Source: Peristeroidobacter agariperforans
GTDB lineage: Bacteria; Pseudomonadota; Gammaproteobacteria; Steroidobacterales; Steroidobacteraceae
Assembly (NCBI RefSeq): GCF_004138335.1
Contig: NZ_RYFW01000001.1
Location: 1,860,001-1,924,000 of the forward strand
Direction: 5' to 3'
Length of the DNA: 64,000 nt
Positions within the stretch are counted from its first letter, which is position 1; every line of letters begins with the position of its first letter. The notes below the pieces were generated by a model that worked only from the letters and a program-made list of their open reading frames with translations, made no database searches and was not told the origin of the DNA. Below are positions 60,638 to 63,738 of this stretch, in pieces. Position numbers and translations under genes: made by a program.

Positions 60638-60761
60638 TGAGAGCTCCGCTGTAAGTTACAAACCGCACGGGCTGCAACTCACAAACGCGTCGCGACCCGT
60701 ACACCGGTCGCCTCTACAGGGAAAATTCCCGTTCTCTCGGCACACCCCGGCCGATCGATGG

Positions 60762-60958
60762 ACGACGGCGGCAAGCAGGTCTCCTGGCTGATGGCTGAAG
60801 TCCTCGCGTCACCTTCCCGGCGGGCCCCCTCACAGCATGCTGAGACTTGGGGCGACGCCAGTGGTTTTTTGACGCGCGGCGAACCACTTACAGTTGCGGG
60901 GGCAGCCCGGGCTTCACACCCGAGTTCCCTTTGAATCCCCTTGGCGGGGAACTTGTCG
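60762..60958 (-). ncRNA. Cobalamin (AdoCbl) riboswitch upstream of btuB
   Basis: Read on the minus strand, the leader has the B12-riboswitch core: GTGAAGCCCGGG and CTGCCCCCGCAACTGTAA near 60886-60920, CCACTGG near 60858-60864, and the B12 box AGCCAGGAGACCTGCT at 60774-60789. The order and spacing of these elements fit cobalamin riboswitches. Bound adenosylcobalamin should sequester the btuB ribosome-binding region or terminate transcription, so the whole uptake operon is repressed when B12 is plentiful. The 3' end near the btuB start was judged by eye. Confidence 0.95.
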
Positions 60959-60967
60959 CGCGGCGCG

Positions 60968-60996
60968 AGGATGAAGTCCGCGCCGGTCTTCGTCAA
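60968..60996 (-). promoter_or_regulatory. Candidate promoter of the riboswitch/btuB operon
   Basis: On the minus strand, TTGACG (60991-60996, overlapping the doxX stop) and CATCCT (60968-60973) are 17 bases apart, and transcription would begin just before the riboswitch. The -10 matches only half of the consensus, so read-through from doxX is an alternative. Confidence 0.35.
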
Positions 60997-61466
60997 GTGT
61001 CGGGAGAATTCTTGCGCCGGCGGCGCAGTTGGTAGTCCAGCGACCAGGCGCCCGGGCCATAGATCGTCAGGACCAGCAGAATATAACCCCACAGGTAGTG
61101 CTGGCCGATGGCGGCCGCGAAACCTTCCTGGAACAGCACGTGCGCATATGAAACTACCGCCAGCGCATTGACGGCCTGCAGGCCCAGCGCGCTGATCCTG
61201 CCAAACAGCCCGAGGATCAGCAGCGTTGGGAACACCAGTTCGCCGGCCGTGCCCGCGATAGCCGCGAGTTGAGGGGACAGCAGCGGCACCCGATATTCGT
61301 ACTCGAACAGCGCAACCGTCTGGTCCCAGTCCGACAGCTTGAGATAGCCGCTCTTGAGGAATACCCAGCTTACGTATACCCGCGAGGCGAGCGCGAACGG
61401 CGCTTGCAGGTGGTCGAGCAGGCGGGCCAGCGGGCCCTTCGGGTCCATCAGCGCATCGCTCAACAT
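60993..61466 (-). CDS. DoxX-family membrane protein
   Basis: A 157-residue protein with four predicted membrane spans, for example LASRVYVSWVFLKSGYLKLSD, GTAGELVFPTLLILGLFGR and LWGYILLVLTIYGPGAWSLD. R-V-Y-V-S-W-V-F-L-K-S-G-Y-L-K-L resembles the first DoxX helix (RLLLGLLFLLSGYLKL-like). ATG 61466 has GGGAG 7 bases upstream. DoxX genes are frequent companions of bufferin-type metallophore precursors, and the divergent gene encodes such a precursor. Its upstream region has the ECF-type promoter pattern. Confidence 0.85.
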   Translation of the reverse strand: MLSDALMDPKGPLARLLDHLQAPFALASRVYVSWVFLKSGYLKLSDWDQTVALFEYEYRVPLLSPQLAAIAGTAGELVFPTLLILGLFGRISALGLQAVNALAVVSYAHVLFQEGFAAAIGQHYLWGYILLVLTIYGPGAWSLDYQLRRRRKNSPDT

Positions 61467-61498
61467 GTTCGCACTCCCGATTGTGATTGTTGGGGACA

Positions 61499-61526
61499 GG
61501 ACCGGTCTCAGCGGTCGCTTATTACC
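61499..61526 (-). promoter_or_regulatory. ECF-type promoter of doxX
   Basis: On the minus strand, GGTAAT (-35, at 61521-61526) and CGGTCC (-10, at 61499-61504) are exactly 16 bases apart, matching the pair at the bufA and sigma genes at 5 of 6 positions in each hexamer. The -10 ends 32 bases before the doxX ATG. Confidence 0.6.
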
Positions 61527-61535
61527 GGATTTGCA

Positions 61536-61563
61536 TGTAATGGGATGGCGGCGGGTCCGGTCT
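61536..61563 (+). promoter_or_regulatory. ECF-type promoter of the bufferin-like gene
   Basis: TGTAAT (61536-61541), 16 bases, CGGTCT (61558-61563). The same arrangement appears upstream of the ECF sigma gene and of doxX. The -10 ends 77 bases before the ATG. Confidence 0.65.
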
Positions 61564-61640
61564 TGTGGGCAAGATGCTGTTCGCGGCATCGATGACGATC
61601 CGTTTCACATCCGCTCGAGAAATCAGATCAGGAGAGAATC

Positions 61641-61892
61641 ATGAGCACACAGAAAGCCACTCGCGCCGCCATGGCCGCTGCCGCGGCACTGCTGTTTACC
61701 ACTGTCGCCACCACCGCGAATGCGGCTGACGAAGCCAAGGTGAAGTGCGAAGGCGTCAATTCCTGCAAAGGCACGTCGGCCTGCAGCACGGCCACCAATG
61801 CCTGCCAGGGCCAGAACAAGTGCAAAGGCGAAGGTTATTTGTTGCTGAGCAAGGCCGAGTGCGATGCGGCCAAGGCCAAGATGAAGAAGTAA
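61641..61892 (+). CDS. Bufferin-type metallophore precursor-like exported Cys-rich peptide
   Basis: An 83-residue protein with a signal peptide (cleaved after about residue 28, TANA|ADEAK) and a mature part with six cysteines (36, 42, 48, 55, 61, 74) in the pattern CEGVNSCKGTSAC...NACQGQNKCKGEG...C. This closely resembles the BufA2-type bufferin precursors (Cys-rich RiPPs that bind copper after cysteine modification by MNIO/DUF692 enzymes). No MNIO or DUF2063 gene is in the window, so the peptide may be unmodified or processed from elsewhere. AGGAG precedes the ATG. It could also be a small periplasmic metal-binding protein unrelated to RiPPs. Confidence 0.75.
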   Translation: MSTQKATRAAMAAAAALLFTTVATTANAADEAKVKCEGVNSCKGTSACSTATNACQGQNKCKGEGYLLLSKAECDAAKAKMKK

Positions 61893-61938
61893 TTGCGCTG
61901 CCGGCGGGCACGCTCGCCGGCGTTCAGCAAATCGACCC

Positions 61939-61969
61939 CACAGCGGCGCGTTTGCGCCGCTGTGCATTT
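61939..61969. terminator. Bidirectional terminator between bufferin-like gene and anti-sigma gene
   Basis: An 11-base perfect stem (61939-61949 with 61954-61964), GTTT loop, then CATTT. It lies between two convergent genes. Confidence 0.7.
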
Positions 61970-61974
61970 CAGGC

Positions 61975-62646
61975 TCAGTATTCCAGCGCGCTCAACAGGG
62001 TTTTCGCGACCGCATCCACCGGCACGTTCTGCCCGAGCACGACGATCACGCCCCGCGGAGCCGGAATGATCTCGCCCTGGAAACCTTGCTCGTCGATACG
62101 TTCGCGTGGTTGAGTCGGTGCATCCGTCACAACGAGCGCGGTGACGGGCCCCTGTTCCGTTTGCACGACGAGATGCGGAACGCGTTGGCCACGGAAAGGG
62201 CAACTCTGCGCGTACGACACTTTTGCCGCGCCGGCTTTCAAGCGTAGGCGCGATGCTGCGAGTACCGCTTCCAGTTCCTTGTCGTCGACGGTTTCCGAAG
62301 TGCGCACGAGCGAGAATTGTTCATGCTTTACATGAGCGATTGCCTCAGCTGCGAAGCTCTCTCTCGGTGTCAGCAGCCACAAAGACATGGCGCCGATGAG
62401 CACGGTAATGAGCATGCTCGCAGCCATGCGCCACGTGCGAGCCGGACTTTGCTTCCGCTTCGGTTCCGAGGCGATCGTCTCGGTCGGCGCATCGACCGCC
62501 AGCGCGCGATAAATCAGCCGATCCATCGCCTGCAGTTCCTGGCGATAGCGCGCGCACTCGGCGCAGCTTTCGATGTGAGCAATGACGTCAGGGTTCGTCG
62601 AGTTGGGCTCGGCGCCAACGAGCGTGCGCAGTTCTTCGCAGTTCAT
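61975..62646 (-). CDS. Membrane anti-sigma factor with Cys motif
   Basis: The N-terminus has a zinc anti-sigma-like HIESCAECARY motif (HxxxCxxC). One membrane span follows (MAASMLITVLIGAMSLWLL), then a periplasmic domain of about 125 residues with a conspicuous CPFRGQRVPHLVV segment that resembles the DUF3379 family. The length is 223 residues. It overlaps the ECF sigma stop (ATGA). The periplasmic Cys could sense metal or oxidation and release sigma. The sensory role is inferred. Confidence 0.82.
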   Translation of the reverse strand: MNCEELRTLVGAEPNSTNPDVIAHIESCAECARYRQELQAMDRLIYRALAVDAPTETIASEPKRKQSPARTWRMAASMLITVLIGAMSLWLLTPRESFAAEAIAHVKHEQFSLVRTSETVDDKELEAVLAASRLRLKAGAAKVSYAQSCPFRGQRVPHLVVQTEQGPVTALVVTDAPTQPRERIDEQGFQGEIIPAPRGVIVVLGQNVPVDAVAKTLLSALEY

Positions 62647-63161
62647 GGCCGCGAGCCCTCCGCGCCTAGAAGCTGCTGACGCAACACCTGTCGGGCGCGA
62701 AACAAACGCGTCAACACGGCAGCGACACTGATGTCGAGGTGTCGAGCGATTTCCTCCGTGGAATAGCCCAGCAGCACCTGTAGCACCAGCGGCTCACGGT
62801 GGGTCACGTCCAGTTTCAGAATCGCGCGGCGCATGTCCTCGACTTCATGCTGGTCGTTGACAGCCAGCGACTCGGGCTCGGCTTCGTTGGCGACATCGAG
62901 GTCCACGAGCGGCAGCCGCTTGCGCTCGAATACTCTCGCCAGCTCGCGTCGTGCGATGGTCAGCAGCCACGGTCGCGCCGACTTCTCGTCCCCGAGCGAG
63001 TCCAGCGACCGCCACGCTCGCAACAGCGTTTCTTGCACCACGTCCTCCGCCAACGCCCGGTCTCGGCAAAGCCAGTACACGAACCGAAACACGTCGGCCC
63101 GAAACGGCATGCACAGCGCTTCGAAGCGCCCGCGCTCACGAGCACTATCGGCAGCGTTCAT
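62643..63161 (-). CDS. ECF sigma factor of the bufferin-like regulon
   Basis: Region 2 (FEALCMPFRADVFRFVYWLCRDRALAEDVVQETLLRAWRSLD in parts) and region 4 (HREPLVLQVLLGYSTEEIARHLDISVAAVLTRLFRARQ in parts) are clear. The protein is 172 residues, the ECF size. Its own promoter pattern (-35 at 63191, -10 at 63169) ends only 7 bases from the ATG, so the mRNA may be nearly leaderless or the true start may lie downstream. It is co-translated with its anti-sigma factor. Confidence 0.9.
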   Translation of the reverse strand: MNAADSARERGRFEALCMPFRADVFRFVYWLCRDRALAEDVVQETLLRAWRSLDSLGDEKSARPWLLTIARRELARVFERKRLPLVDLDVANEAEPESLAVNDQHEVEDMRRAILKLDVTHREPLVLQVLLGYSTEEIARHLDISVAAVLTRLFRARQVLRQQLLGAEGSRP

Positions 63162-63168
63162 CGGGAGT

Positions 63169-63196
63169 AGACCGGGAACAGCAGGATTTTATTGCA
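63169..63196 (-). promoter_or_regulatory. ECF-type autoregulatory promoter of the sigma gene
   Basis: On the minus strand, TGCAAT (-35, 63191-63196), 16 bases, CGGTCT (-10, 63169-63174). The pattern is shared with bufA and doxX, as expected for an autoregulated ECF sigma. Confidence 0.6.
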
Positions 63197-63204
63197 GGGC
63201 GGGT

Positions 63205-63738
63205 TCAGGCTGGCTCGAAGCGTGCGTGCTCGCCCCAGTTCAGCGTCCAGGACCAGCGATCCTCGGCGGGTCGGCCCAGGATCAAACAGCGCAACACCCG
63301 CAACGACCCGCCGTGCGCGACGACTGCGCATCGACCGACCGGCCTCGAGGAAGCTGTGCGATGCCAGGTGGCGACTCGAGTCCATAAGGCCTGTTCTGTT
63401 TCTCCGCCGGGTGGGGCGAGGTTCCAGGTGTCCGCTGCCCATGGGTCGCTATGTTCTCTCGGAATCTGCGCCCACGGCAATTGCTCCCAATCGCCGAAGT
63501 TCAGTTCCTGCAGCTCGGGCGCGAGCACCAAGGGGCTCTGGTCTCTTTGTGCTAACGCGGAGGCAAGGCGCAGGCAGCGCTGCGCCGGACTGGAATAGAC
63601 CAGATCGAACTTCGGCAAGGGCGCCAATGCGATCTGGATGTCGCGCTCCGCAGAATCCGCCAGCGGCACATCGGTTTGGCCATAGCACACGCCTTTCACC
63701 ACCGCAGGCGCGGTGTGGCGAATCAGAAAGATTTCCAC
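63205..63738 (-). CDS. cobC: Histidine phosphatase (alpha-ribazole phosphatase-like)
   Basis: The phosphohistidine motif is IRHTAPAV with a later GQTDVPL, VYSSPAQRCLRLA and a second catalytic His in VVAHGGSLRV, as in phosphoglycerate-mutase-like phosphatases. Position after cobS points to alpha-ribazole-5'-phosphate phosphatase (CobC in Salmonella usage). The start is GTG 63738, 16 bases inside the cobS 3' end; the long upstream frame is not family-like. The length is 177 residues. Confidence 0.85.
   Translation of the reverse strand: MEIFLIRHTAPAVVKGVCYGQTDVPLADSAERDIQIALAPLPKFDLVYSSPAQRCLRLASALAQRDQSPLVLAPELQELNFGDWEQLPWAQIPREHSDPWAADTWNLAPPGGETEQALWTRVATWHRTASSRPVGRCAVVAHGGSLRVLRCLILGRPAEDRWSWTLNWGEHARFEPA

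Follow-up and report, generated by a model that had tools for sequence, protein, structure and literature searches.

Which regulator ties together a bufferin precursor gene, a doxX gene and a sigma factor gene that lie side by side in the genome of Peristeroidobacter agariperforans? Bufferins, which bind copper, are peptides of a class described only recently, and one of their precursor genes, bufA2, is located near the end of a 64,000-nucleotide stretch of this genome (contig NZ_RYFW01000001.1, positions 1,860,001 to 1,924,000), the whole of which is called the window here. Beside it are doxX and a gene pair for an extracytoplasmic function (ECF) sigma factor and a DUF3379 protein. Based on sequence comparison, we propose, with a probability of about 0.82, that three short sites upstream of the sigma gene, bufA2 and doxX are promoters of the sigma factor encoded at 62643-63161, and that they are part of a small regulon that also includes msrP and bufB elsewhere in the genome.

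A sequence-only reading of the window had proposed that TGYAAT or GGTAAT, exactly 16 bases and CGGTCT or CGGTCC precede the three genes. This pattern, its spacing and its coordinates were all exact:

63169..63196, minus strand: predicted ECF promoter of the sigma/anti-sigma operon, TGCAAT-N16-CGGTCT, 7 bases from the -10 element to the sigma ATG
61536..61563, plus strand: predicted ECF promoter of bufA2, TGTAAT-N16-CGGTCT, 77 bases from the -10 element to the ATG
61499..61526, minus strand: predicted ECF promoter of doxX, GGTAAT-N16-CGGTCC, 32 bases from the -10 element to the ATG at 61466

The sites occupy two intergenic stretches instead of the three that had been counted, because doxX and bufA2 share one, in which their -35 elements stand back to back. 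The doxX start at 61466 was our choice, and the longest frame reaches an ATG at 61589 and would enclose both sites. In the degenerate form GYAAT-N16-CGGTCY, the pattern had exactly three matches in the 64 kb, before sigma (63169-63195, minus), bufA2 (61537-61563, plus) and doxX (61499-61525, minus), while 100 shuffles of the window gave a mean of 0.15 matches and a maximum of 2, with none reaching three. No sigma-70-like promoter was found in 61400-63300, but shuffles of the sequence yield just 0.3. Since the sigma ATG lies only 7 bases past the -10 element, the mRNA would have its 5' end at the ATG or right beside it and would be nearly leaderless. Across the family, the first in-frame start was located 3-8 bases past the -10 element in 26 of 46 sites.

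Scanning the whole genome (7.65 Mb), which had been suggested as a check, gave 18 matches versus 6 for the reversed pattern. The count thus stood above its control, but the pattern alone was weakly specific, and it was consequently rejected as a genome-wide code by itself. The case is instead made by conservation across genomes.

In the bacterial family to which the window belongs, DUF3379 genes were present in 56 of 150 genomes, and 30 of the 58 matches, including the window's own, were examined as loci. The strict form G[TC]AA[TC]-N16-CGGTC was found in 12 of these, comprising all 10 loci with a detected bufA2 and 2 without, and the remaining 18 had neither a detected bufA2 nor the strict motif. 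At one locus (L035), the strict form was missing at the sigma gene itself. Named genomes were also scanned, with twelve sigma factors chosen for carrying the motif or bufA2 as seeds, and this produced 64 loci with a related sigma gene. In 62 of them the sigma gene was followed by a match to a profile grown from the window's DUF3379 sequence, and in 29 the examined flanks of up to 5 kb contained bufferin genes (precursor, MNIO maturase or bufC). BufA2-like and BufA1-like precursors, assigned by the best tblastn query, were each present in 14 of the 64 loci and both occurred in three; when NCBIfam was run on three such precursors, one BufA2-like sequence scored above the cut-off and two BufA1-like sequences did not.

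The spacer length served as an internal control. The form G[ACT]AA[TGC]-N16-CGGTC was present in 43 of 65 sigma upstream regions, a set that omitted sigma fragments below 100 bits and upstream regions shorter than 150 bases, while twelve other spacers (10-15 and 17-22) together gave 1. A separate count with the fragments included had 67 sigma regions. The corresponding values were 22 of 30 against 2 for bufA, 10 of 24 against 1 for doxX, and 2 of 23 against 0 for MNIO genes. At N16, the element was found in 0 of 63 regions upstream of the operon-internal DUF3379 gene (3 at another spacer) and in 0 of 22 upstream of the operon-internal bufC (1 at another spacer). The spacers themselves had drifted, with 12 of 16 positions carrying at most 0.5 bits in the Steroidobacter-like set, in which the bits of the -35 and -10 elements are partly a product of how the sites were chosen. 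When paired four-letter words were counted de novo in three groups of loci, with the pattern not supplied, the same element was recovered in 11 of 21, 8 of 13 and 16 of 30 loci, and five shuffles per group peaked at 5, 3 and 5. The last letter of the -35 element is usually T in Steroidobacter-like loci and G in Betaproteobacteria, with the -10 element and the geometry unchanged. Large replicons of Aeromonas, Pseudoalteromonas and Catenovulum, which provided three of the five strongest plasmid matches, have a GAAA-type -35 element and a GGTC -10 element at N16 before the sigma gene.

The arrangement of the bufferin genes varied among the loci. In Povalibacter (L064) and at L065, bufA2 and bufB are adjacent near the sigma gene, behind one such promoter. 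At L067-L069, a single ECF-DUF3379 pair is flanked by precursors of both kinds, with a separate promoter for each precursor and two MNIO genes nearby, and L068 and L069 carry a third precursor. At L071:1035-1264 and L075:4715-4872, the promoter precedes an MNIO gene, with little space for a bufferin precursor between them. The notion that all DUF3379 systems serve bufferins was rejected, since 35 of the 64 named loci had no bufferin gene in the DNA examined, which was short in some cases. In Catenovulum adriaticum (L191:4929-6237), the ECF-DUF3379 pair adjoins VWA/BatD genes and has similar -35 and -10 elements; therefore, the DUF3379 family probably has other duties as well.

The gene order at the window locus is a TonB receptor gene, doxX (minus), bufA2 (plus), the DUF3379 gene (minus), the ECF sigma gene (minus) and a histidine-phosphatase gene. 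Its four central products are:

62643..63161, minus strand: ECF sigma factor, 172 aa, Pfam Sigma70_r2 and r4_2 above cut-off
61975..62646, minus strand: DUF3379 protein, 223 aa, predicted membrane anti-sigma, PF11859 at 105.3 bits (cut-off 33.2)
61641..61892, plus strand: BufA2 bufferin precursor, 83 aa, six Cys, NCBIfam NF050166 at 82.4 bits (cut-off 60)
60993..61466, minus strand: DoxX-family membrane protein, 157 aa from the chosen start, PF07681 at 58 bits (cut-off 23.6)

The sigma factor has the ECF (group IV) architecture, with r2 at residues 21-81, r4_2 at 109-158 and no Pfam match to region 3. Its nearest NCBIfam model is PRK12517, at 195.6 bits slightly below the cut-off of 197, and it is 98% identical to its counterpart in Steroidobacter agaridevorans. 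The window peptide has both the BufA2 equivalog score and the six cysteines, and its signal peptide was judged by eye. The DoxX protein scored 52.5 bits against the HvfX family, under the cut-off of 80.

The start of the DUF3379 gene overlaps the sigma stop by 4 bases, and the pairing of the two genes in 62 of the 64 named loci suggests that the DUF3379 protein is the anti-sigma factor of this sigma. We aligned 59 DUF3379 sequences, namely the window's and those of 58 of the 64 named loci, leaving out L073 and L085 (no match), L077, L084 and L105 (below 150 bits) and L088 (cut by a contig end). Near-invariance was seen at C3, H24, C28 and C31, and five columns do not vary at all, C149 and H158 among them. 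The window protein contains H24-x3-C28-x2-C31, whose residues are present in at least 90% of the 59 sequences; Hx3Cx2C is the motif of the class I, zinc-type anti-sigma domain (ASD) as described in the available text of PMC7406223. The DUF3379 protein of L111 is without the motif cysteines. A structure model with a mean pLDDT of 90.5 consisted of a helical N-terminal portion, one long helix spanning residues 69-92, judged hydrophobic by eye, and a sheet domain at the C-terminus that contains C149 and H158. The pTM of the model, 0.63, leaves the arrangement of these parts uncertain. In a Foldseek search against the PDB, seven of the eight best matches were MucB/RseB, with E values of 0.028-0.12, none at or below 0.001, and TM scores of about 0.3. 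Given these E values, the likeness to RseB/MucB is a lead only. The single helix and the fold match together suggest that the C-terminal domain would be periplasmic. DUF3379 as a word was absent from all 5.39 million papers of the literature searched, so that this probable sensor family is without a described function there.

Beyond the window, one site was near-identical in three of eight relatives and in the own genome, upstream of msrP. The product is the periplasmic methionine-sulfoxide reductase MsrP (471.6 bits, cut-off 207), and an MsrQ-like frame (by eye) follows. Among 14 msrP orthologues, the site was perfect in 6, had one mismatch in 3 and was absent in 5. The three msrP copies from genomes without a DUF3379 match had no perfect site, and one of them had a site with one mismatch. 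Based on this distribution, msrP is probably a member of the regulon in this genome. In Caulobacter, the counterpart is YedY, which we take to be the same protein as MsrP. Two further genomic matches have a downstream frame: at L052 a polysaccharide-export-like gene follows after 109 bases, and at L051 a peroxiredoxin-like gene after 327 bases (gene names by eye). They were kept out of the regulon, and conservation was not part of their evaluation. Another match, which two relatives share, was set aside since it lies within the coding sequence of a fusA-like gene (by eye), and a perfect match with a 15-base spacer at L121:4733 was excluded.

The window locus has no maturase gene for its BufA2. 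The own genome contains two MNIO genes, both outside the window, one of which is bufB (BufB 377.9 bits, cut-off 310). It lies behind a second BufA2 gene, bufA2', at C9:402 kb, 1.5 Mb from the window locus, and is followed by a bufC frame with 32.9 bits, below the cut-off of 142. Over 60 columns, its product and the BufA2 of the window share 72% identity, its product here being that of bufA2'. No site with up to one mismatch was found before bufA2', but GAAAT-N16-CGGTCT, which occurs 6 times in the own genome versus 2 for the reversed pattern, stands between bufA2' and bufB. In the form GAAAT-N16-CGGTCY, one mismatch from the pattern, it is kept in all five close bufA2'-bufB loci, own included, where bufB is at least 88% identical. 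The -10 block GGCCCGGTCYGAT is conserved within an otherwise drifting intergenic region, and GTAAT-N16-AGGTCT precedes bufB in a sixth genome, where an upstream bufA2' was not found. The distant bufB is thus probably part of the regulon in this genome, and its conserved internal site would account for bufA2 being an orphan. Read most simply, the same sigma factor would raise the maturase together with the orphan precursor, with BufB modifying BufA2 in trans.

In the proposed mechanism, the DUF3379 protein would hold the sigma factor at the inner membrane until periplasmic or envelope stress, presumably copper or a thiol-reactive oxidant, acts on its C-terminal domain and releases the sigma factor. 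RNA polymerase carrying this sigma would then read the GYAAT-type -35 element, the 16-base spacer and the CGGTCY -10 element at all three window promoters, switching on the sigma/anti-sigma operon itself, bufA2, which encodes a six-Cys periplasmic metallophore precursor, and doxX. It would also switch on msrP for the repair of oxidized periplasmic methionines, and use the internal promoter before bufB to supply more maturase for the orphan BufA2. As a result, excess soft metal would be bound and oxidized protein repaired in the periplasm.

With these additions, the small autoregulated regulon of sigma, anti-sigma, bufferin and DoxX that had been suggested from the window alone gains support from the recurrence of the same 6-16-6 element in many relatives with diverged spacers. 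The peptide formerly called bufferin-like can be named BufA2 proper. The extent had been drawn too narrowly, since the promoter is common to a wider sigma family and msrP and the distant bufB are probably included. Among the papers listed by the literature searches, none was seen to describe this exact promoter, as had been supposed.

Several observations weigh against the proposed regulon. The pattern was missing from 22 of the 65 sigma upstream regions, and at L067-L069 and L111 there was no in-frame start after the -10 element. Due to the seeding, the named-genome sample leans to this clade, and the loci of the two surveys come partly from the same contigs. Beyond the three window sites and msrP, 14 genomic matches remain, of which a script's rule placed 6 within long frames, and 6 others received no gene call. 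The eight relatives gave 75 matches (3 to 15 each) versus 15 for the reversed pattern, an excess beyond the known targets that may be due in part to codon bias or to unrecognized targets. The msrP genes of G044 and G085, genomes that have the sigma system, and of G135, where the DUF3379 match is weak, are without the site. At bufB, conservation of the -35 element alone means little because it overlaps the conserved end of bufA2' (Lys-Lys-stop), and the site is missing at L184, a bufA2-bufB locus that is more distant and comes from a genome in which DUF3379 had no match.

These points have to be read together with the alternatives. That three similar stretches without function arose by coincidence or shared ancestry is very improbable: the pattern is short and was found post hoc, and it has 18 matches in the genome versus 6 for its reversed form, but the N16 is fixed over dozens of diverged loci, the spacers vary and the sites are placed at gene starts, and the spacer control speaks strongly against such an origin. 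We also consider it unlikely that the promoters are real but serve chiefly a different ECF factor of the genome, with the local sigma as a bystander. Genomes this large usually carry many ECF factors, which counts in favor of this possibility. So does the Caulobacter sigF promoter, which may be read by another sigma too (PMC3511200). However, in both Beta- and Gammaproteobacteria the element accompanies this sigma clade and is also found upstream of the sigma gene, and between clades its -35 element shifts from T to G.

The same promoters and regulon might instead answer to an oxidant such as hypochlorite, with bufferin and MsrP absorbing or repairing oxidative damage, and we regard this version as a serious contender, though at somewhat less than even odds. 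It draws on msrP as a probable member, on Neisseria SigE and Haemophilus RpoE2, of which the latter acts after hypochlorous acid (HOCl) (PMC7907618), and on the invariant Cys and His of the anti-sigma C-terminal domain, which would be usable for either signal. Against it, bufferins are described as chelators of excess copper in the available text of PMC12452194, and Caulobacter SigF, which has a YedY target, answers chromium and cadmium and not reactive-oxygen generators in that of PMC3511200. It is rather doubtful that the orphan BufA2 stays unmodified as a plain six-Cys thiol peptide, with the bufB site serving bufA2' alone. The maturase gene is indeed not adjacent in the window, and PMC12452194, as far as its available text goes, leaves open whether unlinked precursors are unmodified; on the other hand, the 72% identity of the two BufA2 proteins and the position of the site behind bufA2' instead of before it count against this reading.

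Caulobacter, Neisseria and Haemophilus provide known cases in which ECF factors control bufferin-type, DoxX and Msr genes. In Caulobacter, SigF-NrsF (ECF16) resembles the system described here in combining an ECF sigma, a membrane anti-sigma and an N16 promoter before the sigma operon and before bufferin-type operons with DoxX, and its regulon includes a YedY target (PMC3511200). The SigF promoter reads GTAACC-N16-CGAA (PMC3511200), in contrast to TGYAAT or GGTAAT, N16 and CGGTCY; the anti-sigma NrsF (DUF1109) has six helices, unlike the one long helix of DUF3379; and the precursors are DUF2282 (Buf1) instead of BufA2. Neisseria SigE and Haemophilus RpoE2-HrsE (ECF13) similarly control methionine-sulfoxide reductase genes and a DoxX/DUF2063 cluster, but HrsE is a small anti-sigma of 67 aa, and the reductases are MsrAB and MtsZ and not MsrP (PMC7907618, available text). 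The gigPABT genes of Cupriavidus metallidurans, which are induced by copper and gold, form a bufferin-type operon with a DoxX relative beside the ECF sigma RpoQ and its membrane anti-sigma RsqA (PMC10304878), and are likely a further case of ECF-controlled bufferin-type genes. Unlike here, where promoters are predicted, the search for a promoter before gig was without success according to the available text of PMC10304878, which also gives no evidence that gig depends on RpoQ. The sensors RseB of E. coli and MucB of Pseudomonas, which belong to RseA/MucA systems, make up seven of the eight best PDB matches of the DUF3379 model, weak as these matches are, whereas DUF3379 has an anti-sigma motif and a sensor-like domain with invariant Cys and His in one chain.

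This set of sigma, anti-sigma and promoter and its link to Buf2 were not found among the papers that the literature searches listed. The system differs from the known ones in the anti-sigma family, the promoter letters and the Buf2 link. The survey PMC12452194, in its available text, places sigma and NrsF anti-sigma genes in Buf1 clusters and not in Buf2, in contrast to the ECF-DUF3379 pair, which in the window and at 14 of the 64 named loci accompanies BufA2-type genes, often with a shared promoter. More tentatively, ECF-DUF3379 might constitute a separate, widespread regulator class for Buf1 and Buf2 bufferins in Beta- and Gammaproteobacteria, with DUF3379 as a one-chain anti-sigma and periplasmic sensor whose RseA-like half would hold the sigma and whose RseB-like half would bind Cu(I), or undergo direct reaction with oxidants, through the invariant Cys149 and His158, and with one promoter code coupling an orphan precursor to a distant maturase; we hold this somewhat less probable than its opposite. 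Together with its conservation, the promoter code offers a sequence-based route to more members of the regulon and suggests how orphan precursors are paired with maturases encoded at other places in the genome. It also indicates which element to seek before gigP in Cupriavidus, where no promoter was identified.

Searches for mobile copies gave 30 phage records with the sigma factor, all below 60% identity, and plasmid searches for Cupriavidus RpoQ and RsqA had no Cupriavidus among the matches listed (11, 39 and the best 40 of 351). The second MNIO gene of the genome is in the cluster L122:5438-8191 (C10, about 1192-1195 kb), which had no ECF site with up to one mismatch and combines an HvfA/EGKCG-type precursor, an HvfB-type MNIO and an HvfX-type DoxX. 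The C-terminal part of its precursor weakly resembles calcium-binding proteins, and the cluster adjoins response-regulator and kinase-like frames (by eye). In the window itself, a cobalamin riboswitch at 60757-60971 (106.3 bits) precedes the TonB receptor gene.

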